Made by a program: the position numbers and the translations under genes
In this document: one piece after another, positions 5,277 through 53,102 of the stretch
Layout of the letters: the number at the start of each line of letters is the position of its first letter
Numbering within the stretch: the stretch's first letter is position 1
The notes under the pieces: model-generated
Database searches by the model: none
What the model saw: only the letters and a program-made list of their open reading frames with translations
What the model was told of the DNA's origin: nothing
Assembly (NCBI GenBank): GCA_029891345.1
Contig: CM056994.1
Location: 60,419,251-60,483,250, forward strand
Reading direction: 5' to 3'
Source: Dryococelus australis
Lineage: Eukaryota; Arthropoda; Insecta; Phasmatodea; Phasmatidae
Length of the DNA stretch: 64,000 nt

Positions 5277-5282
5277 AAATAT
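5277..5282. repeat. Left target-site duplication of the Polinton
   Basis: AAATAT immediately before the terminal AGTAGTAT. It is repeated exactly at 18380-18385. A 6-bp target duplication is diagnostic of Polinton/Maverick insertion. Confidence 0.9.
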
Positions 5283-5580
5283 AGTAGTATAAAAATTCCG
5301 ATTCGAGCGCAATCCCCAGTTATCAGAAAAACAACGGCAAATTAAATGCTCGAGCCATCAGAAAACCATCAGAAAAAATTACTCTTAATTTTCTGATCCA
5401 AAACATCAAATGACGATTCGAGCGCAACCGCAAAAAAGTAGCTCAAAAAGTTACGTTTGGTTAGATCGTAGTCTTTAAAAAAAAAGTTGCGTTAAACTTC
5501 GCGTTTGAGTGCATCTGCCAAAATACGCGTAAAAAGTTGCGTTTGGGTGCAGTTGCAAAAAAAGTGGCTCAAAAAATTGG
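5283..5580. repeat. Left terminal inverted repeat of the Polinton
   Basis: About 300 bp beginning AGTAGTATAAAAATTCCGA and containing ATTCGAGCGCAA blocks and GTTGCGTTTGGGTGCA-type sub-repeats. It pairs with 18379-17925 on the other strand. It holds one copy of an internal unit that is present twice at the right end. Confidence 0.92.
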
Positions 5581-5615
5581 AAAACGTAAAAAATAAAATA
5601 TTTTATATAATAAAG

Positions 5616-5909
5616 ATGGATCAGTTGTTAAATGTATTAAACGGAACCAAACAATTTAAGAAACTTTCTGAACTTACAATTGGGCTGTCCTATTCCATAA
5701 ACCATGCTGAAATAAATGTTACACGGTATGGATACAAAGTGATAATTACTTCTGGAAATTTTAAATTAACCTTACCAGACAGATATGTTCAGATTTTCAG
5801 TGAAAAAGTTTTAAATGATGTTAGTTATGGAGGTATAAGTTTTGCAGATGATGGAATGGTGGATTGTGGTGCTACGCAAATGCATTCTATTCGGTTTTTT
5901 AAAGAGTAA
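5616..5909 (+). CDS. Small Polinton accessory protein, 97 aa, function unknown
   Basis: This is one of the few open frames in the element without a visible break. The ATG at 5616 is preferred over upstream in-frame codons because those lie inside the terminal repeat and are Lys-rich junk. The protein starts MDQLLNVLNGTKQF and has alternating hydrophobic strands (SINHAEINVTRYGYKVIITS), suggesting a small beta-rich fold. It lacks a signal peptide or membrane segment. It sits just inside the left repeat, transcribed inwards, a position where Polintons often keep small ORFs. The family was not recognised, so no function is assigned. Confidence 0.6.
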   Translation: MDQLLNVLNGTKQFKKLSELTIGLSYSINHAEINVTRYGYKVIITSGNFKLTLPDRYVQIFSEKVLNDVSYGGISFADDGMVDCGATQMHSIRFFKE

Positions 5910-5926
5910 ATGATCATCGCCATGTA

Positions 5927-5955
5927 ATTAGACATCAGTTGATTTTTATTTGTGC
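5927..5955 (+). repeat. Internal 29-bp direct repeat, left copy
   Basis: ATTAGACATCAGTTGATTTTTATTTGTG, nearly identical to 17852-17880. It is internal to the terminal repeats and in direct orientation, so it is not part of the inverted repeat. Confidence 0.75.
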
Positions 5956-6271
5956 TCATATATCTATAAAGTTTTAATGGTTATCCAATCATTAAAATAC
6001 AATTATCGCACTGACTTCGGCAGTGTGCTACAACATAGTCTAATTAAAAATTTAGATACCCATCTCCAAATTCGGCATATTAAAATAGCCAAAACATTGA
6101 ATTCTTTTTCTAAATCTTTCATAGTATTTCTGTAGAAACATTATTCATCTTTATCACATGAAACTTTAATTGTTTTTAAAATACTAAAGTTATTATATAT
6201 AGAATACGACTACTTCCAACCCAAAAAATATCTATGATGTCATCTCTAATACCACTGTTCTTTCGGACAAA

Positions 6272-6956
6272 TCAAAGTTTTAACTTACCTTTTTCATCCT
6301 TAATTTCAACTGCTATTTCATTAACTTGATTTGTTTGCACAGGAAACAATAATGGATAAGCTGGTTTGTAATAGATCGTTTCGCCAAATCCAAATGTTGT
6401 TCTTGTTTTAAAAGTGGTAATTATATTAGTTTCTCTATGATTATATTCATCATGTTTTAATATCATACCATTTACTATATTACAGTGTATATTTATTGTT
6501 TCAAATGGAGCAAATTTTGGAATTGTATCACCATAATGGTCCACATTTGCTTTCAGAGTTTTATTTTCTACGAAACCCAAAAGTTTTCCTATTGAACCCC
6601 GTTTTCCAAACTGTAATTTAAGCGCACATTTTACTTTCACTCTGTTTGTTATTTATCCAGCTCGAAAGATACATCATTTTCTTACCCATCCATTGAATTT
6701 ACACTAAATGAAAAAATGTCTTTTGTAGTTTTTTCAAGATCTTTTAAGCTAAATTGACCAACTGGAATATCAATTGCTGATTCCATATCATTCTGGCCAA
6801 CAACATATAGCTTATTTTCCCAGAGATAATGTCATGTGTTAGATAAGTAGTATAGAACTGAACTAAATCCAATGACTGCCCCTATATCTCTAAAGGGTAA
6901 TGTAGTCTTTTCTTCAACACTGATTTGTTATCTGTTAGCTTGAATACTTCACTCAT
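6272..6956 (-). pseudogene. Polinton minor capsid (penton-like) protein, broken
   Basis: The C-terminal ORF (6640-6272) contains GKLLGF, then INIHCNIVNGMILKHDEYNH, a Pro-rich YYKPAYPLLFPV segment and EIAVEIKDEKGKL. This is the pattern of the minor jelly-roll capsid protein of Polintons, where a NIHCNI-type strand is followed by a Pro-rich turn and an I-x-DxxG strand. The N-terminus starts MSEVFKLTDN at 6956 but is shifted out of frame and interrupted before 6650. The gene is divergent from the packaging ATPase, with 31 bp between start codons. Assignment rests on family pattern; PY/PW naming is avoided because it is not certain. Confidence 0.65.
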
Positions 6957-6987
6957 TTATTATACTATTTAAAAAATCTATTAATAA

Positions 6988-7653
6988 ATGAGCAAGAAAA
7001 ACATGAAACATGTAGACTGGGATATTAAAATAAGAATACCAGACAAGACTGTATCAACAAAGCGTCATGGAGAATTCTTACCTAATAATATTAGATGTTT
7101 GATTGTGGGTCCTAGTAACTGTGGAAAAATTACACTTATGATAGATAATTTTATATATACCCAGGGATGGTTGGACTTTGGTACTCTCTATGTGTGTTTA
7201 AAAAGTCTGGACCAACCAAAATATATCCATTTAAAGAATGATATAGATGTAGCATCAAAATTATTTAATGAACCAATAGCATACTTCTTTCCATCAAATA
7301 TCAGAAATGGTTGATGTAAATGAATATCATAGAGAGACTAGTTGTTTTCGATTATATCATTTTTGAAAATCAAAATATGGTAAGGATTACTTTACTCGTG
7401 GTAGACACAAAGATATTGATTGTTTCTATTCAGCCCAAACATACTCAGAAGTACCTAACCACCTTATAGGGACGATGCCAATTTTCTTTGCATATTCAGA
7501 CAAGATGATACAAATCTTAAACATATTCATAGTGATTTTGTTGGTTCTGATATATCATTTGAGAAATTTAGAGAGACTAACACAACTGATATGACTCGTA
7601 AGTTAAATAATGGTAAGTACCGTAATAAAATTAAAGACTTATTAAATTCTTAG
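6988..7653 (+). pseudogene. Polinton FtsK/HerA-type packaging ATPase, broken
   Basis: The open part (6988-7314) contains the Walker A region GPSNCGKITLM; the Thr/Ser after the key Lys is Ile, which would impair Mg/ATP binding. The reading then shifts frame: about 7385-7460 reads YFTRGRHKDIDCFYSAQTYS, and 7467-7600 contains QDDTNLKHIHSDFVGSDISF in another frame. These downstream blocks match the Walker B/sensor part of Polinton and adenovirus-like genome-packaging ATPases. At least two frameshifts lie between 7314 and 7500. In the intact family the protein pumps DNA into the capsid. Confidence 0.8.
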
Positions 7654-7880
7654 ATTATAAGTAAGTTTTGTTTGTAATGGAAGTGTTTCCATTAAAAACC
7701 AACATAATCTGATATTTTTAAATGTATTGGTATACCATAACTATTCCAATAAACAAAATTGTACCTTCGGGTACATTGTGGGCTTTTAGTATTTTAAAAT
7801 ATATCATGCCATAAGGGTAAACTTCAAAAATTTTATACATGTCAATTTTTTTCCGTTCATGTTATAAGTTGATAACACTT

Positions 7881-8303
7881 TTATATTTTTCTGGTTATTA
7901 TTATTTTTACAACTATAGTTCCGTCTCTCATAAAAAAATATTCTATTCGATTAAAGTAAAATACTTTTTCTTTTGGACTGTATTTTCCAACTAAATGAAT
8001 AACGTTAATTCTGTTTTTCTGATAGTACTCTAAATTGTTTGCATCCATTGGTGCAATGGGATCTCCCACATGTCTTAGTCTTTTTTGTTCAAAATCTATA
8101 TTATTATCTACTTCCAAGTAAGTAAGATAGGCTTTAGCCAATGATCTTTTATTTCTTGTCAGTGTAGCTATAAAGTCATTGAACTGTGTGTAGGAAACAA
8201 AATCATTAGGATTGATCTTCTCAGTAGTTGTATCATTGTCCGTGTGTTCTTTAATTTGATCTTCAATCCAAGAGCTCATTAATGCATTTCCACATATATC
8301 CAT
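7881..8303 (-). CDS. Conserved-type Polinton protein, 140 aa, function unknown
   Basis: An open frame starting MDICGNALMSSWIEDQ. The central part is Lys/Arg-rich, and the block KRLRHVGDPIAPMDANNLEY recalls the short motif of fibre-like proteins (VG.P....DA..K.Y), which is also common in Polinton and adintovirus small proteins. No signal peptide is visible. It is co-directional with, and just downstream of, the protease relic, so it may have shared a transcript. Function is unassigned; a virion-associated role is a guess. Confidence 0.55.
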   Translation of the reverse strand: MDICGNALMSSWIEDQIKEHTDNDTTTEKINPNDFVSYTQFNDFIATLTRNKRSLAKAYLTYLEVDNNIDFEQKRLRHVGDPIAPMDANNLEYYQKNRINVIHLVGKYSPKEKVFYFNRIEYFFMRDGTIVVKIIITRKI

Positions 8304-8670
8304 TGTTTATTAATAGTGAAATAATTTTTGGTAATTTAAAATTATATGACCAGTGATTTAGCACAATTACACAAAAATGACCAAAGTTACGTGATTGAAA
8401 TTTTAAATTCTATCATTGTTATAAAAAATATTACTTCCGAGATATGCTATTAATTGTCGGGGTGGATTTCCACCAAATTAATCAAAATAATATTTGTTTG
8501 CTTTTTTCCAATAGCATACCCAGTGTGTACCAGAGTTTGTTGAAACATCTAGATTAACAATCCCACATTCATTATCGAGTGGCGTGTTAAGTAGCTCATC
8601 GATCATAAATACACCTCAAAAATTTTTAATGATTTTTTTTTTAAACCATTTTATCAATATCAAAGTTACT
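8290..8670 (-). pseudogene. Adenain-like cysteine protease (PRO), broken
   Basis: On the minus strand one frame reads MIDELLN, then NECGIVNLD and GTHWVCYWKK, followed by YYFD, a stop, and FGGNPP. GTHW carries the catalytic His of adenovirus-type maturation proteases, and the FD-x-FG block carries the acidic residue; the stop replaces the residue usually found between them. Further on, in another frame, GHFCVIVL supplies the catalytic Cys block. So the triad positions are recognisable but lie in different frames. In living Polintons this protease processes capsid proteins. The end overlaps the start of the next minus ORF. Confidence 0.75.
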
Positions 8671-8679
8671 GAGTGGAGT

Positions 8680-9087
8680 TACTTTTTTTTAACATTCTTA
8701 CCCCAATTAACATTCTTCAATCCATTGCTGTGTTCATCCATAGCTAAATTATGTCTGTGTTGTTCTTCCAATTCTTGGTTTTTCTTCTTAGCATTAATTA
8801 CTTATGTACCAATAGATGATGCACCGCCAGTTAACGCTCCTAGAGCTCCCAATGCTGCGAAAATTAAAGGTAAAAATCCACCCTTGTGAACTGTCAAACC
8901 ATTTCCAGCTTTCATTTCTTTGGACATTTTCTTAAGTTGTGGAACTGAAATTGTGATAGTCATCCCTTTGTCCTCCTTTAATTTCTTGTTTTTACGTTCC
9001 AGTTGGTCTTTTGTTAGGAAAGAATCAATATTCAAACCCTTCAACTCCTTGTTAGGAACTTGAAATACAATGTTTTTTAATTTCCAT
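8680..9087 (-). pseudogene. Polinton hydrophobic virion-type protein (pX/pVI-like), one stop and one frameshift
   Basis: The open part (9044-8802) contains GMTITISVPQLKKM, GNGLTVHKGG and a hydrophobic Gly/Ala-rich stretch, FLPLIFAALGALGALTGGAS. The frame then meets one stop at 8802 but continues VINAKKKNQELEEQHRHN to a second stop at 8680. The start is ATG at 9087, with a one-base frame change soon after. The mix of a basic tail and a membrane-active-looking Gly/Ala segment is typical of Polinton accessory virion proteins. A membrane role is inferred only from hydrophobicity. Confidence 0.65.
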
Positions 9088-9104
9088 TTATTATGACAAA
9101 TATA

Positions 9105-10510
9105 TTATTTCATTTTAATTCCCCAGCCAAGCTTACGTTTAATATGCATCGCAGATCCAGTAACACCAGCCCACAATCTCTCATTGAGATCAGCATCTGA
9201 ATTTAACAATCTTTTGAACACTTTCTTTTCTAGTTCTTTGTCAGCTACATGTCTTTCAGCTAGATCTTTATGATGATAAGCCGCATCTAGTGGATTAATG
9301 GGTTTATCACCACACTCAATTCTCTCTTTTAGTCTGGTACCCAGACTTAAGTACTGATAACCGGGTGCATGCAACTCAAAAGGAAGTGAATTTATTATAT
9401 CATTGAGTAATCCTTTTCCATGATGCTCCGACTCCCAAAAAGTATGTGGTATTATTTTTAACATTCGTATCAGATATGGTATACCTTTTGGGTTATTCAC
9501 AACATAGTCACTAAACTTGCTGTTGAGCATATTCATTATTCCAACTTTTTCATTGTAATAGTTATCATTTCCAGCATTCTCTTCGCCATAAATAACGAGA
9601 AGTCGATCAACAAGCATCCTAACATCATCCATCCATATGTGTTCTTTGGGATAGTTTGTATATTTCTTTATATCTTTCCCCTTTTTAGGTGAGAGACGTT
9701 TCTTTTTGATCGAATCGTAAATAGGTTTAACAATAATTTTCCATTTATTCCCTTTACTCGATTTTGGCGTTCCCAATTTTGGATCATTGTTTTGAAAAAC
9801 TGTATTTGTATCTGCTAGGATACAACTATAGTGTTCATAGTCGGTTGCAGTGTAGTCCCTTTCTGTTACTTTCTTACTAGTTAGTAATTTCATCAAACCA
9901 CCAGTTCCATTGTATGTTCTGCCTTTTACAGAAAATTTGTCATTGTTGAATGTTACTTCACTATCACCAATATACAATCTACCTTTATCAGCCTTTAGTC
10001 CAAAAACATCGTCTTTGCAGTCAGTTAAGAAATCGGCGACTTTCTTATCAATAAATGTTGTTTTGTAGTTGATTAACTGTGAAATATCAGTTTGCAAACA
10101 CTTCAACGCTTCGTCATAATGTTCATCGTCATTGTCATAGCGTACATTGTCATCGCCAATGCGTTTAACGCCATCATCATAGCGTTCATTGTCAATGCAT
10201 TCATCGGCATTGTCAATGCATTCATCGGTGTCTGTTTTACCAAACAGTTTTCTTTCAAAAGATGTTTCTGTTGGTCTCTGGGGGTATTCTAAACTCTTAA
10301 CAGCAAATGGAACAAGTTCTTTTATTAAGTTCTTAATCTCATTTGTTATGTGACCAATTTTTATCCCAAATTTTCAATCTCATCTATCAATGGTTTAACA
10401 TGTTTTTTATTTTTATCATATTCATTTTGGCGAAATTTTCTTAAAGTTTTAAACTTTTCAATTAGCTGTCTTCTTCTCTCTATATTGTTTAAAATTTTTT
10501 GTTGTCTCAT
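9105..10510 (-). pseudogene. Polinton protein with coiled-coil N-terminus and degenerate phospholipase-A2-like C-terminus
   Basis: The start is ATG at 10510. The first about 45 residues (MRQQKILNNIERRRQLIEKF onward) are charged and helical. One frameshift lies near 10365. An acidic region with tandem DDECIDN-like units follows (about 10250-10110). Then a 333-residue open stretch ends with LPFELHAPGYQYLSLGTRL, INPLDAAYHHKDL and ERHVADKEL. This is the Polinton/parvovirus-like PLA2 region, where family members have a YxxCGPGT loop and DAAC...HD...Y. Here the Cys-Gly-Pro loop is Leu-Ser-Leu, and the stretch carrying the His-Asp pair is missing by a short in-frame deletion. Catalysis is therefore not expected. 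Confidence 0.75.
10110..10250 (-). repeat. Acidic-coding tandem mini-repeat
   Basis: The minus strand has repeated GATGAATGCATTGACAATG units of 21 bases and degenerate relatives. They encode Asp/Glu-rich repeats inside the PLA2-like protein. The frame is kept throughout. Confidence 0.7.
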
Positions 10511-10706
10511 TTATTATATTAATAAATAAAATGAATAATGATAACTTAAATGTATACTGTCTCAAATGTATGAAAAATACACTAAGTGATAAAAATATAA
10601 TATGAACTTACAAATAATAACAAAGTAAGAATTAAATGTGTTTATAGATGTTGTGTTACCAATAACTCGATATTCACTGGTGGGGAATAAAAAAACTATA
10701 TTGTAA

Positions 10707-11139
10707 ATGAAATTCATAAAAAAAATGCGGAAAAACTTCCCCAGAAGAACTGTTCTATCTTTTGGCATCGATGATCTTTGGCAAGCTGATTTAGTTGAAA
10801 TGAATTCTGGCTCTTTAAAAGGTATACACAGAATTAACAAAGGGATTAAATATATGTTAACCGTGATAGATGTTTTTTCCAAATACACCAAATTGGTCCA
10901 CTGAAGTATTTGAGGTGTTTGAAGTATTGTGCACAAACCCCCACGACATACAGAATAAAAGATTTCAAAAGTGAACCTATTAAAGGTATTTTTTATGAGC
11001 CAGAGATGTATAAGACCAAATATGATAAAGACTACTTAGTGGAAAAAGTTTTGTGAAGAAAAGGATATAAGCTACTAATTAAATGGATAGGTTTTGGTAG
11101 TAGTCACAATTTTGGGTTGATAAGAAAAATGTAGTTTAA
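10707..11139 (+). pseudogene. Polinton rve integrase, catalytic core mostly deleted, chromodomain left
   Basis: The open part (10707-10904) reads FPRRTVLSFGIDDLWQADLV, then GIKYMLTVIDVFSKYTKLVH. WQADLV holds the first catalytic Asp of the retroviral-type integrase fold of Polintons. The sequence then jumps straight to PTTYRIKDF and KGIFYEPEMYKTKYD, followed by GYKLLIKWIGFGSSHNFWV, the chromodomain at the C-terminus, with frame changes. The second Asp and the Glu regions are absent, so several hundred bases were deleted. In active elements this enzyme inserts the element and makes the 6-bp duplication. Confidence 0.8.
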
Positions 11140-11161
11140 GAAATTTCTTTCTATATTTAAA

Positions 11162-12425
11162 ATGGATTAACAAAAAATTGAAAGTTATGAACGTCAGTCG
11201 TTTCTGCCAAATGACCAAACAAAAAATAATTTGAATGAATACAACAAGCACATTGACTTTTATATTCCTATTGGCGATGCATTTTTACATCCGAATGAAG
11301 CTTATGTATACCAACAGTGTAAGCTAACTCAAAGAGATACAAATGTAGATTATGAAAAAAACTTCAACTATTGATCTTTGTGAGAATTTCTTCCCATTCC
11401 AGTTCTCAATATTAGAGATCTCAATACATGGTTGTTTAATCGAAATTATTGACAACCCTGGCATCAATCCAACACTGATGCATACATTGCTAGGTTCGGA
11501 ATCAGAATCAGCATACTTCCAAATGTCGGGGATAGAACTATGTTAATATGTTAGGAAAGACAAGCATAACGAAATTACTTATCCATTAATAAATTTGTTT
11601 GGGTTTATAAGAGATTGCAATTAAATATTCTGGAAAGGTGGATACAAGATCACATTTTATGCGTTATTCTAATGATGGTGCTTCTTTTTACAGAAGACCC
11701 CCAAAGAAAGCAGATGGCTCTGATGATGAAGATAATATACCAGATGCTGCTAAAATTGTTATTGAGAAAATGAAAATTCTGTGGCCAATATTGAATACGA
11801 TCCTATTTGTGGAGGGGAAATTAAAGCGGAATTATACAAACATCCCAAAATTCAAATTGGTTTTAATTATTGACAATGTCTTGAAAAACCAGTACCTACT
11901 AATCCAAACTCATTTCAGTTTGATATAAAATATCAGTTCAATTAAATCCAATTCGATATGCCAAACTTTGTCATTGTTGGTTTTCAGCAAAACAGAAAAT
12001 AATATCCTGGGCAATTCACACACAGTTCAACGTTTGACTCTTGTTTTGTCAAAAATATTTCTATTAAGAATGGACAGAATGAAGTATTTCCCAAAGAGAA
12101 TTGGAATTTAAACATTGATGATAAAATTTTTGATAAGATGTATATTGCTTACACTGATTTGAGAAATTCAAAGACTAAACTAGATACCCATTATTGTAAT
12201 AATGAACTGTGCTTCAGCTCTGGGTCATTTATTGGGAGAAGACCATTGTATGTTATTGATTGTTCTTACAGAAAAACCGCTATTGTAAAAGATCGAACTA
12301 ATCTGAAACTTACAGTTGATTTAAATAAACCAATATCGGCTACAACTATTTGTAACGTGGTACTAGTAAGCCAAAGAAACCTAATTTATGATGTTAAAAG
12401 TGAAAGAATCACCGATGTCCAATAG
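11162..12425 (+). pseudogene. Polinton major capsid protein (double jelly-roll), broken
   Basis: The start ATG at 11162 is followed at once by a stop in codon 3; the frame then reads DFYIPIGDAFLHPNEAYVYQ. Another frame (11352-11546) has NFFPFQFSILEI and IDNPGINPTLMHTLLG. A further ORF (11638-11928) and the end (12138-12425, PLYVIDCSYRKTAIVK) complete the pattern of the hexon-like major capsid protein of Polintons. At least four frame changes or stops are visible. Length is roughly 420 codons, short for the family, so some internal sequence is probably missing. It converges with the metalloproteinase gene, 130 bp away. Confidence 0.7.
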
Positions 12426-12557
12426 TGCGTAAACATGTATGGTTATTAGTTTTTAATGGATGGTTATCCATTAAAAACATTTACTGTTATGAAATTTTTT
12501 CTTTAAAATTATATAAGAGTGTTTTTTAAATGATACACAATAATATTCAAGTATAAT

Positions 12558-14062
12558 TTAATGTACGGGGATCGTCTTCATTTGCATCACAAGTTTTTTG
12601 AACTGATTAAGAATATCTGAGTATGAAGATGGTAATGTAAGACACTGTACATTGACTACTGAAAGATCAAATCTGTCAGCTCTGGTCAACATGTTCGTAA
12701 ACTCACTGAAATCATAGAATGTTGTGTTCTTGTATAAGAATAATAATCCATTGGTGTATCTAAAAGCAGAATCTAACCCAGCTGGTAAGCCCGGAAATTT
12801 CTTTGAAATTAAACCGAAAAATTTAGATCTAATTTAGCACTCGTCCAGTTCCATAAAATACATTTCATCGTAAAATTCAAAAGTGCGACCAGAGTAGGTG
12901 TTTGCAACTGCTTTTATTTTGGAATTATGTGGTATACCCTTATCGTAAATAACCTTTGGATATCCAGACATGAGTTGCAGACTAGGGTATTCCAATATAT
13001 ATTAACATTTGACTCAATAAATATTACAATTTCCCCTGATGGTCTCTGATAAATCAATGTAAAGCTTTCAAAATTAGCGTGTATGAAAAAAAACCAGTTA
13101 GTGATAAGCTCTGGTTTACTAAATATTTTATCTACTATGTCATATGTCCAAACATATTTTTTATAAAAAATATACAGCACTTGGTTGACTGCCAAAAATG
13201 TGTTGATGTTTTTTAAGTTGCATAAATCTACTTCTTTTGTAGGGAATAATATGTTTGGTTTAAAAGGGAATAATGAATGCATAGATCTTTTAGGTTTACC
13301 ATATAGATTCTGTATAGCCAAAATATCGTCAGTTTGTAATGTTAGTCGATCTGAGACATAAATTGGATACATAACAGACTCGTAGACATTCGAATGATGT
13401 ATTCCTAATGCATGTCCTATTTCATGCAATAGCACAACGAAAAGATTTATTTTTCCTTGAGATTTGTTGTCATGTTTAAGATGACAATCTTCTTCAGTAT
13501 CAATATGAATATCAACTAGTGAGTTATCTGATTTCGGAAAAAAATCATGACCAAATATTCCCTCTTTCCCATCTTATTTACTATTACATAAATTCCGAGA
13601 CTTTTGAAATGTGTGGATACTACATTTGTTTGATATTATTATGTGCGGGTTTTGAGTATCGTGTTTAAACATAATGTCATTATGTTTGGCCCACGTATGA
13701 AACACTTCTTGAGTTAGTTGTAGTATGTCATGATTGGCTAACGCATAATGCCATTTTATTACTTTCGTTGTCCATTTGGTAATAGATGTAGAAAAGCCAA
13801 ATATATAATCTGGTACCCCACATCTAGGAGCTTTGATTAGTGTTAGTGTTTCTTTACTTATTTCACCACTAATTGTTATGTTGTGATACTCTTGAAAAAG
13901 TCGAAGAGCATTTGAAACTGCTGATGAATTTACATGTGTAATATCTTTGTCATATACTTTTAAGTACCCAAAATCATTTAAATATTTTATTGTGGAAAGT
14001 GTTTGATTTTCACCTCTGCTGGAGGTTATCAAAATTAATATGATAATTGTAAAGGTAATCAT
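12558..14062 (-). pseudogene. Matrix metalloproteinase (matrixin) carried by the Polinton, lightly broken
   Basis: The start at 14062 gives a signal peptide (MITFTIIILILITSSRG). A peptidoglycan-binding-like prodomain follows (SNALRLFQEYHNITISGE) with the cysteine switch PRCGVPD. The catalytic domain has GIFGHDFFP, the zinc site HEIGHALGIHH and the Met-turn SVMYP. Hemopexin repeats follow, including LPAGLDSAFRYTNGLLFLYK. Breaks are few: one in-frame stop at 13574-13576, a frameshift near 12965 and a stop near 12836. The gene begins 33 bp after the polymerase stop, same strand, inside the element. Matrixins cleave extracellular matrix; some insect viruses carry them, but they are not standard Polinton genes. 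It could instead be a host copy captured by the element. Confidence 0.88.
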
Positions 14063-14094
14063 TTTATTATAATTTTTAAAAAATATTTCATAGT

Positions 14095-17000
14095 ATCACT
14101 CTTTTTCAATTTTGTTGTGCCCCCATGGTGGTGTATTAATGCCATCTTTAAGAATAAATCTTTTATCATCTTCGGAACTTAATGCTTTTTTTCTCAACTC
14201 AATCGTATACAGTTCATGTTTCTAACTTTTAATAAGAGTCACACTTTTGTACAACACTTTCTTACCAAAAAAAATACTATTTGTAGTCACCAAAACTAAT
14301 ATCATTTCTGACTACTGTGTTTTTCACATTCTTTACTCTTTTCTTTACACCACCTTCCACATTTATTGCATACATTTTCTATTTCAATCCAATAAATTCT
14401 TCCATTATTTTTCCATTACGATCATCTTTCATTTTGCCAATAATTGTTTTGTTAACTAACTGTATACCATGTGGATTATCTTTTTTATAGTCAGAAGTAT
14501 CAAAATGATCGAACATTTATTTCATGTCAGTGTAGAAGTCTGATGTTTTTATATAATAGATGTATGAATCAGTATCTTGGTAGCACAGTTCAATATTTTT
14601 CCCGTACTTTGGTTTCATTATATTATAGTGAAAATCGTACATTAAGACTTTCGATAGATCAAGTATGCTCATTCCAACATAAATGGGTTAGTTAAAGCAC
14701 AGTTTTGTTTTAATCATATGAACTGCAACCAAAGAGTTAGTAAATATAGTCCTATCTTTAAAGTTTGGCTTAGCTACCAGTTTATCCATTTGCTTAGAAC
14801 TTGTGCACAACCGTATATCCACTCTGTTTCTAATATTTCCCATTGTTTTTCCAAAAACAGAATTGTTCATTAATTTGTAGAAATCTTTTTCAAAGTAATT
14901 TTTAGACTTTTTTCGCATATTTGTGTTTAGATTAATTAAAGGAAAGCCAATCTGATTGCTCAAACTCCAGAACTCTATGAATTTTTTTCAACTTCATTCC
15001 GAGCCCTAGATATTGCTTAAGATTTACGTAGTGTAATACGTATTTTTTTTTATCATACAGAGTAGTTAAGAGTTTGGGATTTTTTGAACTTTCTGGTGTT
15101 TTATTCTCTGGTGCCAATGGTAGATCTTTGTGGAGATCGTGTAGTTCATGTGGGTATTCCAAATCAACTTCCAATATATAACTTTTTCTAGAATCATCTT
15201 GTAGTTTTGATACATTTATATTTGTATTTCTCCACTTAAACCCACCATAGGGTAAATACTGGCTCATAGCCCATCCGTATAAGTCATTGGTGTCTATATA
15301 TGTAAGATAAAAGATTTCCTTTGTACTATCATAATCATTCATACATTTATTATTTGCTTTAGCATATCGCTTACAACATTGTGAAATTCCACCACGAACA
15401 CCTTTTTCTATCATTTAAATCATGTCGTAATCTGTTAATAATTCTAGGTCTATTTTAGTATGTTTGAGCATAGCATCCCATGCTAATCCTGGAGCTGTGA
15501 AATACCATGCTGGATCTAGTTTATATGTTTTGAGACATACATCTCTAAAATTTTCTATTATATCAGACAATATCAATACATCAGATTTGTTATAGAGTTC
15601 TGTGTACTCTCTTAGAGGTTTTATGTGGAATTTTTCCCACACATTTCTCGCAAATTCGTAATCTTCGTCTGTAATGTCACATTAATTGAGTTTGTTGTAA
15701 AATGCATCTATGGATGGAAGTGATGTCTCACAAAATTTTTCAGCACTATCCATATAGTCATATGGACAAACACCATTTCTTATAACAAACTCAAGAAGTT
15801 CATTGAAAAAATGCTTACACGTTTCTCGGAATTGGCTTCTGGAAAGGTTGCTAGAGAGTTTGTCAATACTACTAGCCATAAATTTAAATGAGTCTATAAA
15901 TCTGAGATTTACACTTTCACATACATGTTTCGTAAAAGAAATATATTTATCTTTGTTGTTGGGAATTAGATCAATTTTATTTTCATCGATGCCAAGATCT
16001 CTTATGAATAAATGTGTGTCATTACCAGATAGATTGTGTATAAACACTGGGACAAAACGTGTATTTCTATACGATAAGTTACAATCTCTATGTGCAGCTT
16101 CCCTAAATTTCCCGTAAGATGATCATGATCACTCACAGAATCACCATTCAAAGAATTTTAACATATATGACAATGGGTAGCTGTATCATAAACAATTTGT
16201 TCTTCCTGAGTTAGTGGAAGAATTGGTTTTTCATTTGTGTATATATCACCAATAGGCTTTGCTTCTTCCATTAGCATTTTTAAGGAAACACTAGATGCAT
16301 CAGATCCTTAATAAGTTACTGGTGGTTTATAGTATCCATGTTCGTATTTTACATAGTAACAGAAGCTAATAGGCTCGTGTTTTTGGTATGGTTTCGTGTA
16401 GGATTCATTGGGGTTTGGTTGGCAAGTTTCAATTTTAGTCGACAAACATTCAAAATCAGCATATATCACAAACGGAACTCTCAAAGAATGATTTTTGTTT
16501 TTAAATCTTAATATGTCATTTTTTCCTTTATATGGTAGTTCAACTCTAACACCATCGTGATCTCGGCAGTCTTGCTCGTGATCTTTTAGCTTACTTACAG
16601 AGTAGAAATATTGCAAACATCTATCGCATATATATGTTTTGTGACCATTATTTGTTACTTGTGATGTGATAAGTCTCGAAAGACTTTTTATCCAGCAGTA
16701 GTGGTCGTTCTTTTCGTCTTTGATATAGAGTTGGTTAATGTGCTTCTCCGTCTTATTTTTTGTTGTTTTTAATGGGGAGATTATATATTTCTTATTACCA
16801 TATTTTTCTTCGTATGTGTATACATTAATAGAAATACCATTTCTTTTCTCAAAGGTTGGTATGCTATCCAATTTCATTGGAAATTTCAAACCCCTAAGTG
16901 CATCATCAAACTCATATTTGTAAGCTATGTATTTATTCACTCTTTGAGGGTCTTTTTGTACTTGATGCAATGCAGATAGAACAGACCACAAAAAACATTT

Positions 17001-17850
17001 TTGATCATTATTCTTAACATTAATTACCGCCTGCTTAGCTTTAATTTTTTCTGGGAGATCAACATAAGAACTGCCTTTGAATGGTACATATTAATTTATT
17101 CGCACTTCTAGTTTAAATATTCTGTTGAGTACCCACTGAGATCCCTTTGCTTCAAAAGCCCCCATCTCAGCTATGATTTTCGATATGCTGTTGGCATAAT
17201 ATTGTTCCAGATTAGTCAATTTCAGTATAATTTTGTTCTTTGTTCTAAAGGAGCTTTTTACATATTCAATATTCTCACCAATTCCTTTTTTGTGCTCAGT
17301 GAAGAGTTTCATGTTCACTTTGAGTGATTTTAAATGTTTATTAATTAGTCCCGTACAGTTTCTTTTACATAGTTTAGGAAATGTTTTGGGTCTAAGTATG
17401 CATTCACATTCTTTACAGCATAAGTCTTGATCCTACTTTGAAATGCTGTTTCGACTTCTTCTACACTGAATCTGAGTGTGTACTTATGAATTTTTTCTTC
17501 TCAAGTGACTTCTTATGAGAAATGGTTTGTGAAAGTGATTACAAGTTTCAAATTTCACTTGTTTCTCTCGTGTGAACTTCTGTTTTGATATTAAATGTGA
17601 TATCTTAAAAGTTTCCCATGCATTTCTTGGGTCATGTGATTTATTATGTATTGGTGTAAGACCTTTGGGCAATTTACTTTTAAGATGACTTATTATGAGA
17701 GATTGTTTGTAAAAGTGATTACAACACACTTGACATACTTCTCTTGAGATTTTTTCTTCTTTCTTTTCGCAAAAACATCTTTCTTAAATTTATATTCTTT
17801 TCAAACATTACCAGTTGCATTAGCCTTTTTCATTGCCATGGTCGTCATCA
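14095..17850 (-). pseudogene. Protein-primed family B DNA polymerase of the Polinton, broken
   Basis: In order on the minus strand: Cys/His finger-like repeats (17729-17484); an N-terminal part with GAFEAKGSQWVLNRIFKLEV and, after an in-frame stop at 17091, the block LWSVLSALHQ; the exonuclease motif I PFVIYADFECLS (about 16460); motif II HNLSGNDTHLFI (about 16040); motif [15 protein letters not shown] (about 15590); polymerase motif A YIDTNDLYGWAMSQYLP (about 15290); motif B FYKLMNNSVFGKTMGN (about 14870); motif [13 protein letters not shown] (about 14575); and the tail KALSSEDDKRFILKDG before the stop at 14095. At least six stops or frameshifts separate the blocks. The motif residues themselves are mostly kept. 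It would have replicated the element. Confidence 0.93.
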
Positions 17851-17851
17851 T

Positions 17852-17880
17852 ATTAGACATCAGTTGATGTTTATTTGTGT
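17852..17880 (+). repeat. Internal 29-bp direct repeat, right copy
   Basis: ATTAGACATCAGTTGATGTTTATTTGTG, matching 5927-5955. Here it lies just upstream of the polymerase start on the minus strand. Confidence 0.75.
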
Positions 17881-17924
17881 CCATTTATTATATACACAAT
17901 TTTTTTTTTTTACATATTCAAATT

Positions 17925-18379
17925 TTTTGAGCCAATTTTTTTTGAAACTGCGCCCAAACGCAACTTTTTATGTGTATTTTGGCAGATGCACTCAAACGCA
18001 AAGTTAACACAACTTTTGTTTTTCTAAAGACTACGATCTGACCAAACGCAACTTGAGCCACATTTTTTGCGGTTGTGCTCAAATGCAACTTTTTGAGTCA
18101 CATTTTTGCCACTGCGCCCAATTGCAACTTTTTACTCGTATTTTTGCAGATGTACTCAAATGCAAAGTTTAACTCAACTTTTTTCTAAAAACTACGATCT
18201 AACCAAATGCAACTTTTTGAGCCACTTTTTTGCGGTTGCTCTCGAATCATCATTTGATGTTTTGAATCAAAAAATTAAGAGTAATTTTTTCTGATGGTTT
18301 TCTGATGGCTCGAGCATTTAATTTGCCGTTGTTTTTCTGATAACTGGGGCTGCGCTCGAATCAGCATTTATATACTACT
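17925..18379. repeat. Right terminal inverted repeat of the Polinton
   Basis: About 455 bp, inverted relative to the left end and finishing ATATACTACT. It is roughly 155 bp longer than the left repeat because the unit containing GCGCCCAA(A/T)(C/T)GCAACTTTTTA, the block ACTCAAA(C/T)GCAAAGTT and the block ACTACGATCT occurs twice (about 17925-18060 and 18095-18225). The copies differ by point changes. Confidence 0.9.
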
Positions 18380-18385
18380 AAATAT
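18380..18385. repeat. Right target-site duplication of the Polinton
   Basis: AAATAT directly after the terminal ACTACT, identical to 5277-5282. Confidence 0.9.
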
Positions 18386-26994: not shown

Positions 26995-27450
26995 TTACAT
27001 TTTATTCACATTGAATTTCACATTTAAGTCTGTAGCTCTTTCAGCAACCTTTTTTACTATCTCATCATGCTTCTGCTCATCTTCTCCTGAGACTAGTAAA
27101 TCGTCAAAATAAACAATGATGCCAGGGATGTCTCCAAAGTTTTCTTCATTTACACGTTGAAAAATTTCAGGAGCACAGGACCATCCAAACGGAAGCCTTA
27201 AGAATCTGTATGTGCCAAATGAAGTGCTGAATGTACAAATGTGGCTTGATTCCTCATCAAGAGGCAACTGATAAAATCCATCTTTTAGATCTAACACAGT
27301 AAACACAGACTTTTTTTTCATGTTACTGCTCATGTCTTCCAGAGTTGGAATTATGTGAAACTCTCTACAGATGGCATTATTTAGTGCTGTCGGATCTAGA
27401 CACAGTCTCAGAGAACCGTCCATTTCTTCCACAATTGTCAAATTGCTCAC
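26995..27450 (-). pseudogene. Gypsy reverse transcriptase palm (relic B)
   Basis: Contains LRLCLDPTALNNAI, SVFTVLDLKDGFYQLPLDEE, FLRLPFGWSCAPEIFQ and the catalytic VYFDDLLVSGED (YxDD intact). A stop at 26995 ends the frame, and the thumb region is lost before RNase H resumes. Confidence 0.85.
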
Positions 27451-27989
27451 TCAGCCAGAGGTTGATCCACTTTTGCGATTACTCCTAATGATGCCAGTTC
27501 TACTAATTTTTTCTGAAGCCTCTCCCTCAGAGCTATTGGTACTCTCTTCGGTGGTTTTACTACTTGCTTTGCTAACTGATTTGTTTGCAGATGACATTCA
27601 GCTTCTATACAGCATGTCCCTTTGAAGATGCCATGGTACATTGACCTGAAGCTGTCCTCTGTCAAACCCCGTGCCTGTACACTATCTACACATCCCCGAG
27701 ACACAAGACCCAGAGATGCACACCCAGTTAATCCCATAATGGGCACTTTGCAATGTTCGTTATCTACAACAACAAATTCCAGATTACAAGGTTGTGTTTC
27801 CGATTTATTTACTGAACACCTCAGAGTCGCTACACCTATTGATTTCACTTTTGTAGCACCAAAACCGTCAAGTGTCATTTCTTTCGTCTTTGCTTCACTC
27901 AACTCGCCCACAGACTGCAAAATTCTTTGTGGAATGATATTAATTTCTGAACCTGTGTCCACCTTAAAAGCTATTTGTTCGTCCACCAC
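27447..27989 (-). pseudogene. Gypsy aspartyl protease (relic B)
   Basis: The frame reads MVDEQIAFKVDTGSEINIIP, an intact DTGS active site of a retropepsin, then VPIMGLTGCASLGL, the second half of the fold, and KRVPIALRERLQKKLVELAS, the linker into reverse transcriptase. It runs directly into the next ORF with a short frame change near 27447. Confidence 0.8.
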
Positions 27990-28112
27990 GGTTATTGCCT
28001 ACATCCACTCTTGATGCACCTGTTTAACAGTGTCTACCTCCACGGTCGTTTTACTATTTCTTTCAGATTTTGGTTTGACCAGCACAGATTCCACTGTCAA
28101 CAGAGAACTCTT

Positions 28113-28517
28113 CTAGGTTATCCTGTACCCTAATCTCCGCAACAGATTGGTCCTTAAACTCACAGCTTTTTTCAAATCAGTCAGAAACGATTTGAACAAC
28201 TCGTCCTCCTCCTGCAATCTACTATGAAACTTAAACCTTTCCACCACTATGTTCTTTACAGGATCGCAATAGTCCACAAATGCCTTCAACACTTTTTCGT
28301 AGTCATGTCTGTGTTCTGCCATTAATTCAAATGTATTATTCAATTCCACCGCCTCATCACCTATCACGTTTAACAGCATGGCCACTTTTACCTGAGACGG
28401 TTTTGATACAAAACCTGTCGCCAGCATAAATATCTCAAAGTTCTGTTTAAATTTTCTGAAATTTTCACACAGACTCCCTTCTAGAATCAATGGCGATGGT
28501 GACTTGAACAATTCCAT
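28113..28517 (-). pseudogene. Gypsy gag, N-terminal part (relic B)
   Basis: The ORF begins MELFKSPSPLILEGSLCENF and continues FKQNFEIFMLATGF, KVAMLLNVIGDEAVELNNTF. This is a typical capsid-type gag start of arthropod Gypsy elements (LEG....NW..F...F). It ends after about 134 codons and lacks the downstream zinc knuckle region, which is deleted or shifted out of frame before the protease at 27989. Confidence 0.75.
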
Positions 28518-32892: not shown

Positions 32893-33440
32893 GTGCCAAT
32901 CTCACTGCCAGGTCGTGACAATCCGCCTATTGAAGGTGCAAAAGTGTTTCATGTGACTTACAGTACCGTGAAAGCATTAAGGATCTGTGTTGAACTTGAA
33001 GGGAAAAATGTCACAGCTGTAATTGACACTACCGCTAGTCACAATTTTGTGCATGAGGGTTTGATACAAACTACAACAACTAGAGTGCCACCGCGACTTG
33101 TGCAATTCGCTACCACACACCAACAGAGAGATGCAAAGAGTTTTATGCACATCACTGTAGGGATCCGAGAACTGCATACCAGGTGCAATGTTTACATTGT
33201 GCCAGACTTGTGCGAGGAAGTGATTCTGGGACTGCCATTGCTTATTGACAACCAAGCCATGATAGAATTGTATCTGATTCGTCTGCACGTGGGGACACGT
33301 GGCCGGTGGTCTGTATCTGCCATGGGAGCAACACCGCTGACAGCAACAACTACTGTGCCGCTTGTTTTCTTCGAGCACGAGGTACCCTCTACACATCAGC
33401 AATGTCTGCAACATCTGCTGGACCAGTATGCCAGTGTGTT
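32893..33440 (+). pseudogene. Gypsy aspartyl protease (relic C)
   Basis: Contains GKNVTAVIDTTASHNFVHEG, where the usual active site DTGA/S reads Asp-Thr-Thr-Ala, and EEVILGLPLLIDNQAMIEL, the second half of the retropepsin fold. The Gly to Thr change in the active-site turn would inactivate it. It is in frame with the start of reverse transcriptase. Confidence 0.75.
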
Positions 33441-34160
33441 CCACACTGAGGGGAAGCTGCAGCGCACCGATGTCACAGAACATGCAATCATCACAACACA
33501 CAAGGACCCGGTGTACTCCAAGCCACGAGACCCAGGTATTTTCTTTCGCTGCATCATCAACCAGCAGGTATGTGAGATGCTAAACGACAACGTAATTGAA
33601 CCTACGCAGAGTGTCTATAATTCATTTATTATCCTTGCTCCAAAGAAATATGGCGAATTGCAATACTGTGTTGATTTCCGCCCTTTGAATAAAATCACTG
33701 TAAACATGCCACCACCAGTCATTAATATGAAAGACATTTTATCAACATGAGTACCAGCTACCATTTTCATATCACTTGATTTAAAGTCCGGATATTGGCA
33801 AGTGCTTATCCGCCCACAAGACAAATGGACATAGATTTCAATTTGTTGCCATGCCATTTGGTTTAAAGTGTGTCCCATGCAACGTTTCAAAACTTAATGG
33901 TTAATCTACTGGATGGATTCATTGGAGACTTTGCGATGGCTTACTTGGATTATGTACTTGTTTGGTCTAACAGCTGGGAGGAGCACTTGCACCATTTGAG
34001 CCTTGTGTTTGAATGCCACAAATGTAACAAACTTACATGCAAAGTGGAAAAGTGTAAGTTGGGTATGAGTAGAATGGAGTTTTTGGGACACTATGTAACA
34101 GGGGAGGGACATGAACCAGAACAGCAACATGTACAGGAAATTCAAAACAAATCCTCACCC
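33441..34160 (+). pseudogene. Gypsy reverse transcriptase (relic C)
   Basis: Contains GELQYCVDFRPLNKIT, then a stop at 33750, ISLDLKSGYWQV in a continuing frame, and a frame change to FGLKC-like sequence near 33860. FAMAYLDYVLVWSNSWEEHL follows: the catalytic YxDD box is Tyr-Leu-Asp-Tyr, so the second catalytic Asp is lost. Thumb-like sequence runs to about 34160. Confidence 0.8.
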
Positions 34161-34745
34161 AGATCACGTAAACAAGTCAGGAAATTTTTTGGCTTAATTA
34201 AATGGTTAAAGGAATTTGTCCCAAACTTTTCTGTGATTACTGCACCATTAACTGCTTTGTTGTGTGAAAAATGTACATTTGTCTGGACACCTCCTGCGGA
34301 TCAAGCCTTTAAAGAAATCAAACTTGGATTTCAGAACTGTAATCTGCTATCTATGTTCAATCTAGAGTTACCCAATGTTGTACAAACAGATGCCAGTCAA
34401 GAAGGCATCGGGGCCATTTTGTATCAGGTGGAAACACACGGGGAAAAGCACATAATCAGTTATCTCAGTGCGAAGTTCGGGGAAACAGAATGCAAGTATC
34501 ACATCAATGAACAGGAATGTTAAGCAATTATACATGCATTGTGAAAGTACCGGCCGTAATTGCTAGGAAGACAGTTTACTCACAAAACTGACAACCAATG
34601 TCTTGTGTGGTTAGAGAGCATGCATAAAGGGAAGAGCAAACTTGCCTGCTGGGCGCTGTTACTTCAGGAGTATGATTTCAAGGTAGAACATGTGGCGGGG
34701 AAAACCAACGAGCTCACCGACACTTTGTCCTGGAATCCTTGTCTG
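34161..34745 (+). pseudogene. Gypsy connection and RNase H (relic C)
   Basis: VRKFFGLIKWLKEFVPNFSV is the connection. LPNVVQTDASQEGIGAILYQ holds the first RNase H Asp, and ECKYHINEQEC a Glu block; a stop lies at 34521. KTDNQCLVWLESMHKGKSKL follows, and FKVEHVAGKTNELTDTLSW ends the domain. Confidence 0.8.
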
Positions 34746-35099
34746 AATCCAACGGTAACTGACGATGCAGAGTGGGAAGAAGCTCTACCACCGTACCATG
34801 CAATACCAACTGCAGCAACACAAACTCTTGTTGTACAAAACATTGTTTGCCACACCACCCAGCGAACTTTTTTCATTGAATGTACGGGGCATGTTAAGAG
34901 AGGTACACACTGCGCAAGAAAATTCCCTAGATGCTGCGCAACGCTGACAACACTACGCCACACAGTACACAGAACACTGGAGGTAGTGGACCGAGAATAC
35001 AAACCAAACCACCTGGTAATTGCGCACTATGGCGAACATATGTCCTAAAGGAGAAACGGAAACTTGTATTTAAGTATGCACACGACAGTGTGGAGCATT

Positions 35100-51814: not shown

Positions 51815-52164
51815 CAGAGCTATTAAGATTTTAAATAATTTATTAGTTATTGTTATTAATTTTTGCTACTACAAAAGTGACAGCCAAATAAAGGTCTTTT
51901 GTGATGCTGACTTCGCCAATGACAAAGTTGGCCGAATATCATGCAATGGGCATGTAATTTCATTAGCAGGAGGAGCAATGGCATGGTTTTCCAAGAAACG
52001 AGGTGTTGTTGCACAATCCACTGTTGAAGCAGAGTTTTCATCCATGGCAGAGGTCCCTAGGAAGTAGCATGGATGAAAGGTCTGGTAGGCGAGCTAGCCA
52101 ATCAAGATTCATTGACATGTCATTTACTGTATGATGTGACAACCAAGGGGCTACCAGTTAAGGT
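51815..52164 (+). pseudogene. Copia RNase H, N-terminal part
   Basis: Reads AIKILNNLLV, IKVFCDADFANDKVGRISCN, GGAMAWFSKKRGVVAQSTVE and AEFSSMAEV. These are the first Asp (CDADFA) and Glu (EAEF) blocks of Copia RNase H. After a stop at 52065 it continues out of frame (MKGLVGELANQDS) until it is cut by a foldback element at 52165. Confidence 0.85.
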
Positions 52165-52896
52165 TGAAGTAAAGCAACTGCCTATGGAGCACTGCATCTG
52201 ACTATACAATGTGAAGAACTCATAAAAAAGTAGTACAGATACCATAAAAATGGTCAGAAATGTTTTTCAACATTATAAAATATTTTACCAAAATATACTT
52301 TTTAAATGTAAAGAAATAATTGGTGAAAATAGTCTGTATTTTTTAACAAAATTTAAGCGTATTGCACTCTGGATGCTTCAGAAAGCAGAATTTGCAAAAA
52401 AAAATCTTCAAGAACGATTGTAATAATATTTACTGTGATCATATGTAGTAAAATCATAGTAATAATGTATCGTAGCAATTTTGTAATTAACTTTATTAAA
52501 ATGTTTGCGACAAATGGATGCACATAAAAATAATCATAGAAATTATTTCCTACACTATTATGACCATTATCTTACATACAATCATAGTAAACATTATGAC
52601 AATATTCCATGACAAAGATTTTCTTGCAAATTCTGCTTTTTGAAGCATCCAGAATGGAAATGCGCTTAAATTTAGTTAAAAATACAGACTATTTTATTCA
52701 ATTATTTTTTTACATTTAAAAAGAGTATTTTGGTAAAATAATGTATAATGTTTCAAAATAATGAATATACATTCTTCTTTCAGATACAGCATAAAGCACA
52801 TTTTTCTGACAATTTTTATGGTGTCTGTACTACTTTTTTTTTGAGTTCTTCACGTATAGTCGGGTACAGTGCACCATAGGCAGTTGCTTTACTTCA
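52165..52896. mobile_element. Foldback/MITE element (732 bp) inserted in the Copia RNase H
   Basis: The arms start TGAAGTAAAGCAACTGCCTA and extend about 285 bp inwards (left about 52165-52450, right about 52577-52896), inverted and about 80-85% similar by eye. The central spacer is about 130 bp. There is no coding capacity. No clear target duplication was found. Confidence 0.85.
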
Positions 52897-53102
52897 TTCT
52901 TAAACACAAAATTATGTAATGTCTGAAATGGTTAAACATGTTAGTGTAAAGTTCTGCTATGTGAGAGAATGTGTAATGCAAAATCTGGTTAAATTTGACT
53001 GTTTCCACTAAACTTAACCTAGCAGACATGTTCACTAAAGCGGTGAATGGTGTTACGACACAAAAGTTGTCTTGTAAGATAAGGCTAACTTCTCTATCAT
53101 GA
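52897..53102 (+). pseudogene. Copia RNase H, C-terminal part
   Basis: Reads SEMVKHVSVKFCYVRECVMQ and, after a stop/frame change, TKLNLADMFTKAVNGV to a stop at 53102. These match the C-terminal end of Copia polyproteins (KH..V...F.RE and LAD.FTK). Together with 51815-52164 it forms one gene end split by the foldback. Confidence 0.85.

Follow-up and report, generated by a model that had tools for sequence, protein, structure and literature searches.

The DNA analysed here (the window) is a stretch of 64,000 nucleotides on scaffold C2 of the 3.415-Gb genome of the phasmid Dryococelus australis, and it holds a complete Polinton insertion (positions 5283–18379, no strand assigned) that carries a gene for a matrix metalloproteinase of the matrixin type. 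The ends of the insertion are exact: AGTAGTATA begins at 5283, TATACTACT runs to 18379, and the target duplication AAATAT stands directly outside both (plus strand, 5277–5282 and 18380–18385), as left by one insertion with a 6-bp duplication. A target duplication of this length is typical of Polinton/Maverick elements, and the terminal inverted repeats that go with it are likewise present in the window (5283–5484, plus; 18179–18379, minus), with ungapped cores (5314–5484 and 18179–18349, 95% complementary) that reach the element ends via small gaps. The element is AT-rich (GC 31% inside vs 41% outside) and the genes within it are mostly broken.

The matrixin gene is intronless, lies on the minus strand (12561–14062) and sits between the pieces of the polymerase gene (14520–17432, minus) and those of the capsid gene (11171–12422, plus). 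Its frame is interrupted by a TAA (13576–13574), a frameshift near 13001 and a further stop (12836–12834), all within a pro-matrixin-hemopexin layout that can still be followed in three parts. The first (13577–14062), terminated by the in-frame TAA at 13574–13576, encodes a leader, hydrophobic by eye and starting at the ATG at 14062, then the prodomain with the cysteine switch PRCGVPD (13828–13808) and the first part of the catalytic domain; the second (12917–13573) encodes the remaining catalytic domain with the zinc site HEIGHALGIHH (13426–13394) and the Met-turn SVMYP (13378–13364), followed by the start of the hemopexin domain; the third (12561–13001, stop at 12834–12836) continues the hemopexin part in the shifted frame. 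Pfam recognizes Peptidase_M10 on 13573–12917 (E=8e-24) and PG_binding_1, in the prodomain region, on 14062–13577 (E=2e-6); the hemopexin repeat is sub-threshold in the window copy (E=0.05) and passes in an open sister copy of the gene, L026 (26.8 bits vs a cut-off of 21.3). Sequence matches in PDB are karilysin and matrix metalloproteinases (MMPs) (best E 1e-14; promatrilysin 1e-7). The zinc site HExxHxxGxxH, the Met-turn, the PRCGxPD prodomain and the hemopexin propeller that define matrixins (peptidase family M10A) are all present. The preliminary description had named the leader, prodomain, cysteine switch, zinc site, Met-turn and hemopexin repeats, and had placed them between the polymerase and the major capsid gene of an element with exact ends; every one of these parts was found on the minus strand, the hemopexin of the window copy only below threshold, and the placement is borne out by the coordinates, the inverted repeats and AAATAT. 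Because of its two stops and the frameshift, the window copy is a pseudogene, one dead insertion of its lineage. Indel errors from long reads are mentioned for this genome in the assembly paper (PMC10268593), so that single frameshifts may be assembly errors.

The other genes of the element are decayed in the window and were assigned with the help of L026. The double-jelly-roll major capsid gene (11171–12422) gives one piece at 26.3 bits, and its open 418-amino-acid relative in L026 matches PF21738 with E=5e-27 (95.4 bits; the cut-off is 27 for both). The retrovirus-like integrase survives as a fragment below cut-off (10707–10901, plus), and its 369-amino-acid relative in L026 matches rve (E=2e-11, 44.4 bits vs a cut-off of 32.6) and, below cut-off, chromo (E=1e-4). 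A double-jelly-roll capsid protein and a retrovirus-like integrase, both expected of a Polinton/Maverick, are thus represented through the L026 relatives. The polymerase relative in L026 contains DANNLYG, KLMNNSVFGK and DTDS in that order, which we take to be motifs A, B and C of family-B DNA polymerases (PolB); the identity of the gene is based on this ordered set together with a sub-threshold Pfam match considered below.

The catalytic piece of the window matrixin has at least 151 matches in the D. australis genome (about 150 of 2457 candidates were scored), and a 524-amino-acid open frame is present in 12 of 150 copies among the matches listed. Two pattern matches (L047, L048) are, by eye, not matrixins. 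To this was added a sample of 35 stretches of 7 kb, of which 20 came from the top ranks and 15 from the low ranks, on which gene order was read with pieces of the window's own genes as probes. The capsid gene was found in 32/35, the polymerase in 32/35, both in 30/35 and at least one of them in 34/35; in 30 of the 35, a count that takes in L011, a probable duplicate of the window copy, polymerase and matrixin lie on the same strand, the capsid gene faces them and the matrixin stands between. The reverse approach, with a probe from the polymerase C-terminus, gave at least 18 of 150 scored matches with a listed matrixin within 6 kb. All 18 of these matrixins (window and L011 included; matrixin and polymerase probes both come from the window) are on the strand of the polymerase and 1.36–1.78 kb downstream of it, where 0.07 would be expected at random places. 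Since the matrixin list is incomplete, 18/150 is a lower bound. First-look candidates numbered 14,174 and 11,974 for the two polymerase pieces and 2,457 for the matrixin piece, and such polymerases may be very numerous in this genome.

The fetched copies fall into two groups, a recent subfamily (9 copies) and an older one. The median difference within the recent subfamily is 1.0% for the matrixin and 0.6% for the capsid gene, and five of its nine members keep the 524-amino-acid matrixin frame; in L026 and L027 the capsid, integrase and polymerase frames beside the matrixin are open as well, as far as the stretch reaches. Over 36 aligned rows, decayed ones included, the zinc-binding histidines are conserved in 34, 32 and 32, the catalytic glutamate in 33, the switch cysteine in 33 and the methionine of the Met-turn in 35. 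The net ratio of nonsynonymous to synonymous change (dN/dS) between the subfamilies (Nei-Gojobori counts on codons set to the register of a single copy, passing over stops and excluding L011 from the old group) is 0.16 for the matrixin, 0.18 for the capsid gene, 0.12 for the integrase and 0.07 for the polymerase. The matrixin is, by its likeness to the capsid gene in this ratio, an element gene under purifying selection between lineages, about as strict as that on the capsid gene. The ratios within the old subfamily (matrixin 0.60, capsid 0.76, integrase 0.71, polymerase 0.61), like those within the recent one (matrixin 0.48, capsid 0.87, integrase 0.47, polymerase 0.72), point to mostly neutral decay after insertion. 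The between-subfamily synonymous distance (L012–L045) is about 0.8 for the polymerase and 0.34–0.46 for the matrixin, capsid and integrase genes; the doubled value for the polymerase suggests that genes were exchanged between element lineages.

L011 (G000:C2:60351131-60358070), a near-identical broken copy 78 kb from the window element and in opposite orientation, needs separate mention. It is 98.5% identical to the window matrixin (1534/1557 compared bases) and has in common with it 3/3 window stops in the matrixin alignment (one before the ATG) and 6/6 in the capsid gene, and only 1/3 in the integrase and 5/10 in the polymerase. By the shared matrixin and capsid stops it is probably not independent of the window copy, and a single dead insertion would be the source of both; that stops elsewhere are shared only in part leaves this in some doubt.

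We modelled the protein from the open natural copy L026 (500 amino acids from the ATG) with 31 further rows. The model (mean pLDDT 86, pTM 0.54) consists of the prodomain, the catalytic domain, a four-bladed propeller and a C-terminal helix. The top solved structure by E-value is human proMMP-1 (E=3e-31); whole-chain TM-scores are low (0.39–0.47), and single domains score better (by target, 1slm 0.83 and 1rtg 0.82). The top viral fold matches are the matrixins of Helicoverpa zea nudivirus 2, granuloviruses, Wiseana iridescent virus, ascoviruses and Amsacta entomopoxvirus. A profile search with the matrixin gave, among the 100 proteins listed, first insect relatives and metagenome contigs and then nematode, vertebrate and other matrixins. 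The insects are ants (Solenopsis, Pogonomyrmex, Temnothorax, Polyergus, Vollenhovia, Cataglyphis, Wasmannia, Pseudomyrmex), the fireflies Aquatica leii and Lamprigera yunnana, and the locust Schistocerca nitens. Lamprigera has many such relatives on separate contigs, which would fit a mobile carrier. In a tree of 42 chosen rows, drawn with neither viral matrixins nor insect Mmp1 or Mmp2, the insect and metagenome rows, 29 in all, group in a single clade (support 100/99) of phasmid, locust, firefly and ant members, in which the D. australis copies are placed next to Schistocerca (90/91). The Schistocerca protein (P0038) has a cysteine-rich stretch ahead of its prodomain (residues 1–97), which may stem from a gene model fused with an adjacent gene of an element. 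These first ~97 residues may resemble the zinc-finger region of a Polinton polymerase; this N-terminus had no convincing match to the element and none in viral contigs, and in Pfam only a weak match to IBR.

For comparison with the host, a single exon of an apparent Mmp gene was found (L053, G000:C11:34140828-34141148) and no other host Mmp exon besides it. Its match to lungfish MMP28 (89 bits, 42%) is closer than its match to the element matrixin (51 bits, 33%). The preliminary description had proposed the matrixin as Polinton cargo, and had held that a single copy grouping with a host exon array, introns included, would speak for chance insertion. The gene is multicopy, intronless and far from L053, and the cargo proposal now has strong support in the at least 151 matches, the lack of introns, the same place in 30/35, the selection resembling that on the capsid gene and the distance from the one host Mmp exon. 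The proposal as a whole, which also took in virion formation and tissue escape, is supported in part. The idea of a wider family of Polinton-borne matrixins is borne out within the D. australis genome; beyond it, the matrixin relatives of ants, fireflies and a locust are candidates.

We regard the matrixin almost certainly as an element gene kept for the benefit of the element, and it is likely, judging from sequence, place, copy number and selection, to be a standing part of this Polinton lineage that supplies a secreted protease, with passage through extracellular matrix as its probable purpose. Where the gene sits, how it is selected and which domains it encodes together argue for a protein with an extracellular task in the service of the element. 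The lineage encodes a pro-matrixin with a leader and a four-bladed hemopexin domain, downstream of the polymerase and between two converging genes. When the element is expressed and particles form, the zymogen would pass through the secretory pathway and would be activated by removal of the cysteine-switch prodomain; the enzyme could then cut the basement membrane or other extracellular matrix around the producing cells, so that particles might pass out of or into tissues, the germ line perhaps among them. A comparable role has been proposed for the granulovirus matrixin mp-nase, namely degradation of basement membrane for systemic spread (PMC4500397), and by this analogy passage through extracellular matrix is the role to which we incline, if only by a little. 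A bolder version, in which insect Polintons of this lineage still are or very recently were viruses able to cross tissues, gaining or regaining the germ line with a matrix-dissolving enzyme of their own, and in which the matrixins of ants, fireflies and the locust point to the same kind of agent in three other insect orders, appears to us doubtful. Whether Polintons are still infectious viruses is an open question.

Several observations weigh against the main reading. Most fetched copies are broken, with only 7 of 36 rows free of in-frame stops in the aligned matrixin codons, and recent copies show little constraint (dN/dS within the recent subfamily 0.48 for the matrixin and 0.87 for the capsid gene). 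On the side of the carrier, the Pfam match of one window polymerase piece to DNA_pol_B_2 (E=0.0011) is below cut-off, the 892-amino-acid polymerase frame matched no polymerase family in Pfam, NCBIfam or PHROGs and no PDB polymerase, and no Pfam match was obtained for a packaging ATPase, maturation protease or minor capsid protein among the frames tested, which are decayed. Outside D. australis, the capsid search gave no ant or firefly protein, Lamprigera and Pogonomyrmex included, and scans of viral contigs with the polymerase, the matrixin, the capsid protein and the locust piece gave no such element. Finally, of four hand-picked polymerase copies off the matrixin list, none has the matrixin in the region tested (1.3 kb, starting 500 bp past the polymerase probe). 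Elements without the gene therefore exist, and germ-line spread does not need a matrixin in cis.

Two observations from these searches may be added. One capsid relative (P0104, 41%) lies on a metagenome contig of 17,287 bases, approximately the length of a whole Polinton. Two viral contigs matched by the matrixin profile were left unused (L001, with bacteriophage-like genes by eye, and L002, for which frame lengths only were at hand).

In three of the four copies without a matrixin the capsid gene follows the polymerase directly, and in L050 other sequence does. L049 and L052 lack the stretch corresponding to window positions 12500–14075 (minus strand) and have one common junction; L051 has a junction of its own with an 85-bp filler. 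In a tree of the capsid region (36 rows; L015, L020 and L031, having no capsid region, are absent from it) L051 groups within the recent subfamily, L049 and L052 within the old one. These positions are most simply explained if the ancestor common to the two subfamilies already had the matrixin, as it probably did, and if at least two losses followed. The order of branching inside each subfamily has little resolution (2 of 33 branches starred), and recombination between copies may have influenced the tree.

Among other explanations, one that we hold as a tentative possibility is that an insect mobile-matrixin gene moves among several kinds of elements or viruses, and that only its D. australis members ride Polintons. 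The strongly supported 29-row clade (100/99), which spans phasmid, locust, fireflies and ants, and the failure to find a capsid relative in ants or fireflies would suit such a gene; the reading of the D. australis genome would be unaffected by it. A second explanation accepts the matrixin as an element gene and gives it another task: the enzyme would serve the particle, processing a virion or cell-surface protein or helping release or entry, rather than opening basement membrane. Most Polintons encode a maturation protease (PMC4642659) and none was identified here by family search, but the Polinton maturation protease is a Ulp1-like cysteine protease according to PMC10175614, and secreted matrix enzymes have the same leader, cysteine-switch prodomain and hemopexin propeller as this protein; we consider a task at the particle unlikely. 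It is more improbable still that the matrixin benefits the host, or confers a selfish advantage such as drive, with the element as mere vehicle: this would accord with the large copy number and some open frames, yet inserted copies decay under weak constraint (dN/dS 0.60 within the old subfamily) and the stronger constraint appears between element lineages. Least probable of all is the chance capture of a host Mmp copy that the element then transports without function, for although elements without the matrixin exist, with the capsid gene adjoining the polymerase, and the window copy is dead, the gene is present in two subfamilies that amplified separately, with a net dN/dS of 0.16 between them, its catalytic residues are conserved and it stands well apart from the single host Mmp exon found; the chance capture of a host exon array is rejected on copy number, the 30/35 placement, dN/dS and the distance from L053.

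The element resembles Polinton/Maverick elements in its terminal inverted repeats, 6-bp duplication, integrase, jelly-roll capsid gene, PolB motifs and dispersed copies, and differs from them in the matrixin between polymerase and capsid gene. The Polinton gene set comprises pPolB, an RVE integrase and a double-jelly-roll capsid protein, and no matrixin is among the Polinton genes named in the available portions of the same papers (PMC10175614, PMC4642659). A literature search, partial in coverage, found no Polinton with a matrixin among the matches listed; the metalloproteinase named alongside Polinton in PMC4981718 is a poxvirus one. The D. australis genome is described as 63% repeats, mostly unclassified, and a word search of the main text returned no mention of Maverick, Polinton or virus (PMC10268593). 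On our reading the window element belongs to a Polinton lineage with a new standing gene. Its matrixin is like those of nudiviruses, granuloviruses (mp-nase), iridoviruses, ascoviruses and entomopoxviruses in the catalytic fold, in the hemopexin domain that some of them have and in the insect hosts, a likeness that rests on fold matches, and unlike them in that the carrier is an integrating, transposon-like element. With animal MMPs (proMMP-1, MMP-28, MMP-19) it shares domain order, zinc site and cysteine switch, and it differs from them in sequence (25–28% identity to four vertebrate rows), in the lack of introns, in the modelled C-terminal helix and in its separate insect clade. Nematode Mavericks with captured genes are reportedly also Polinton-type elements carrying non-core genes, other than the one described here; we know of no matrixin in them.

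A transposon-like carrier thereby joins the insect viruses known for matrixins. A matrixin makes most sense outside the cell, and combined with the purifying selection between lineages this would imply an extracellular phase at some time in the history of the lineage; the elements may once have behaved as viruses crossing tissue barriers. The order polymerase, matrixin, capsid offers a concrete marker for other insect genomes, and if the linkage were true in ants and fireflies, matrixin-bearing Polintons would be a widespread class.

Two further frames of the window element deserve mention. An open frame at 6988–7311 (plus) contains, by eye, a Walker-A-like GPSNCGKI; it has no Pfam match and is a possible packaging ATPase. 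A 422-amino-acid open stretch at 9108–10373 (minus) has a sub-threshold match of the phospholipase A2 (PLA2) type (E=0.016), and some Polintons are reported to carry PLA2-like lipases (PMC4642659). Outside the element, retrotransposon-like open frames were noted by eye from the list of open reading frames at 26995–28517 (minus) and 33145–35048 (plus), and nested inverted-repeat arms (50, 37 and 140 nt) around a short spacer at 52158–52903 are perhaps a small inverted-repeat transposon.
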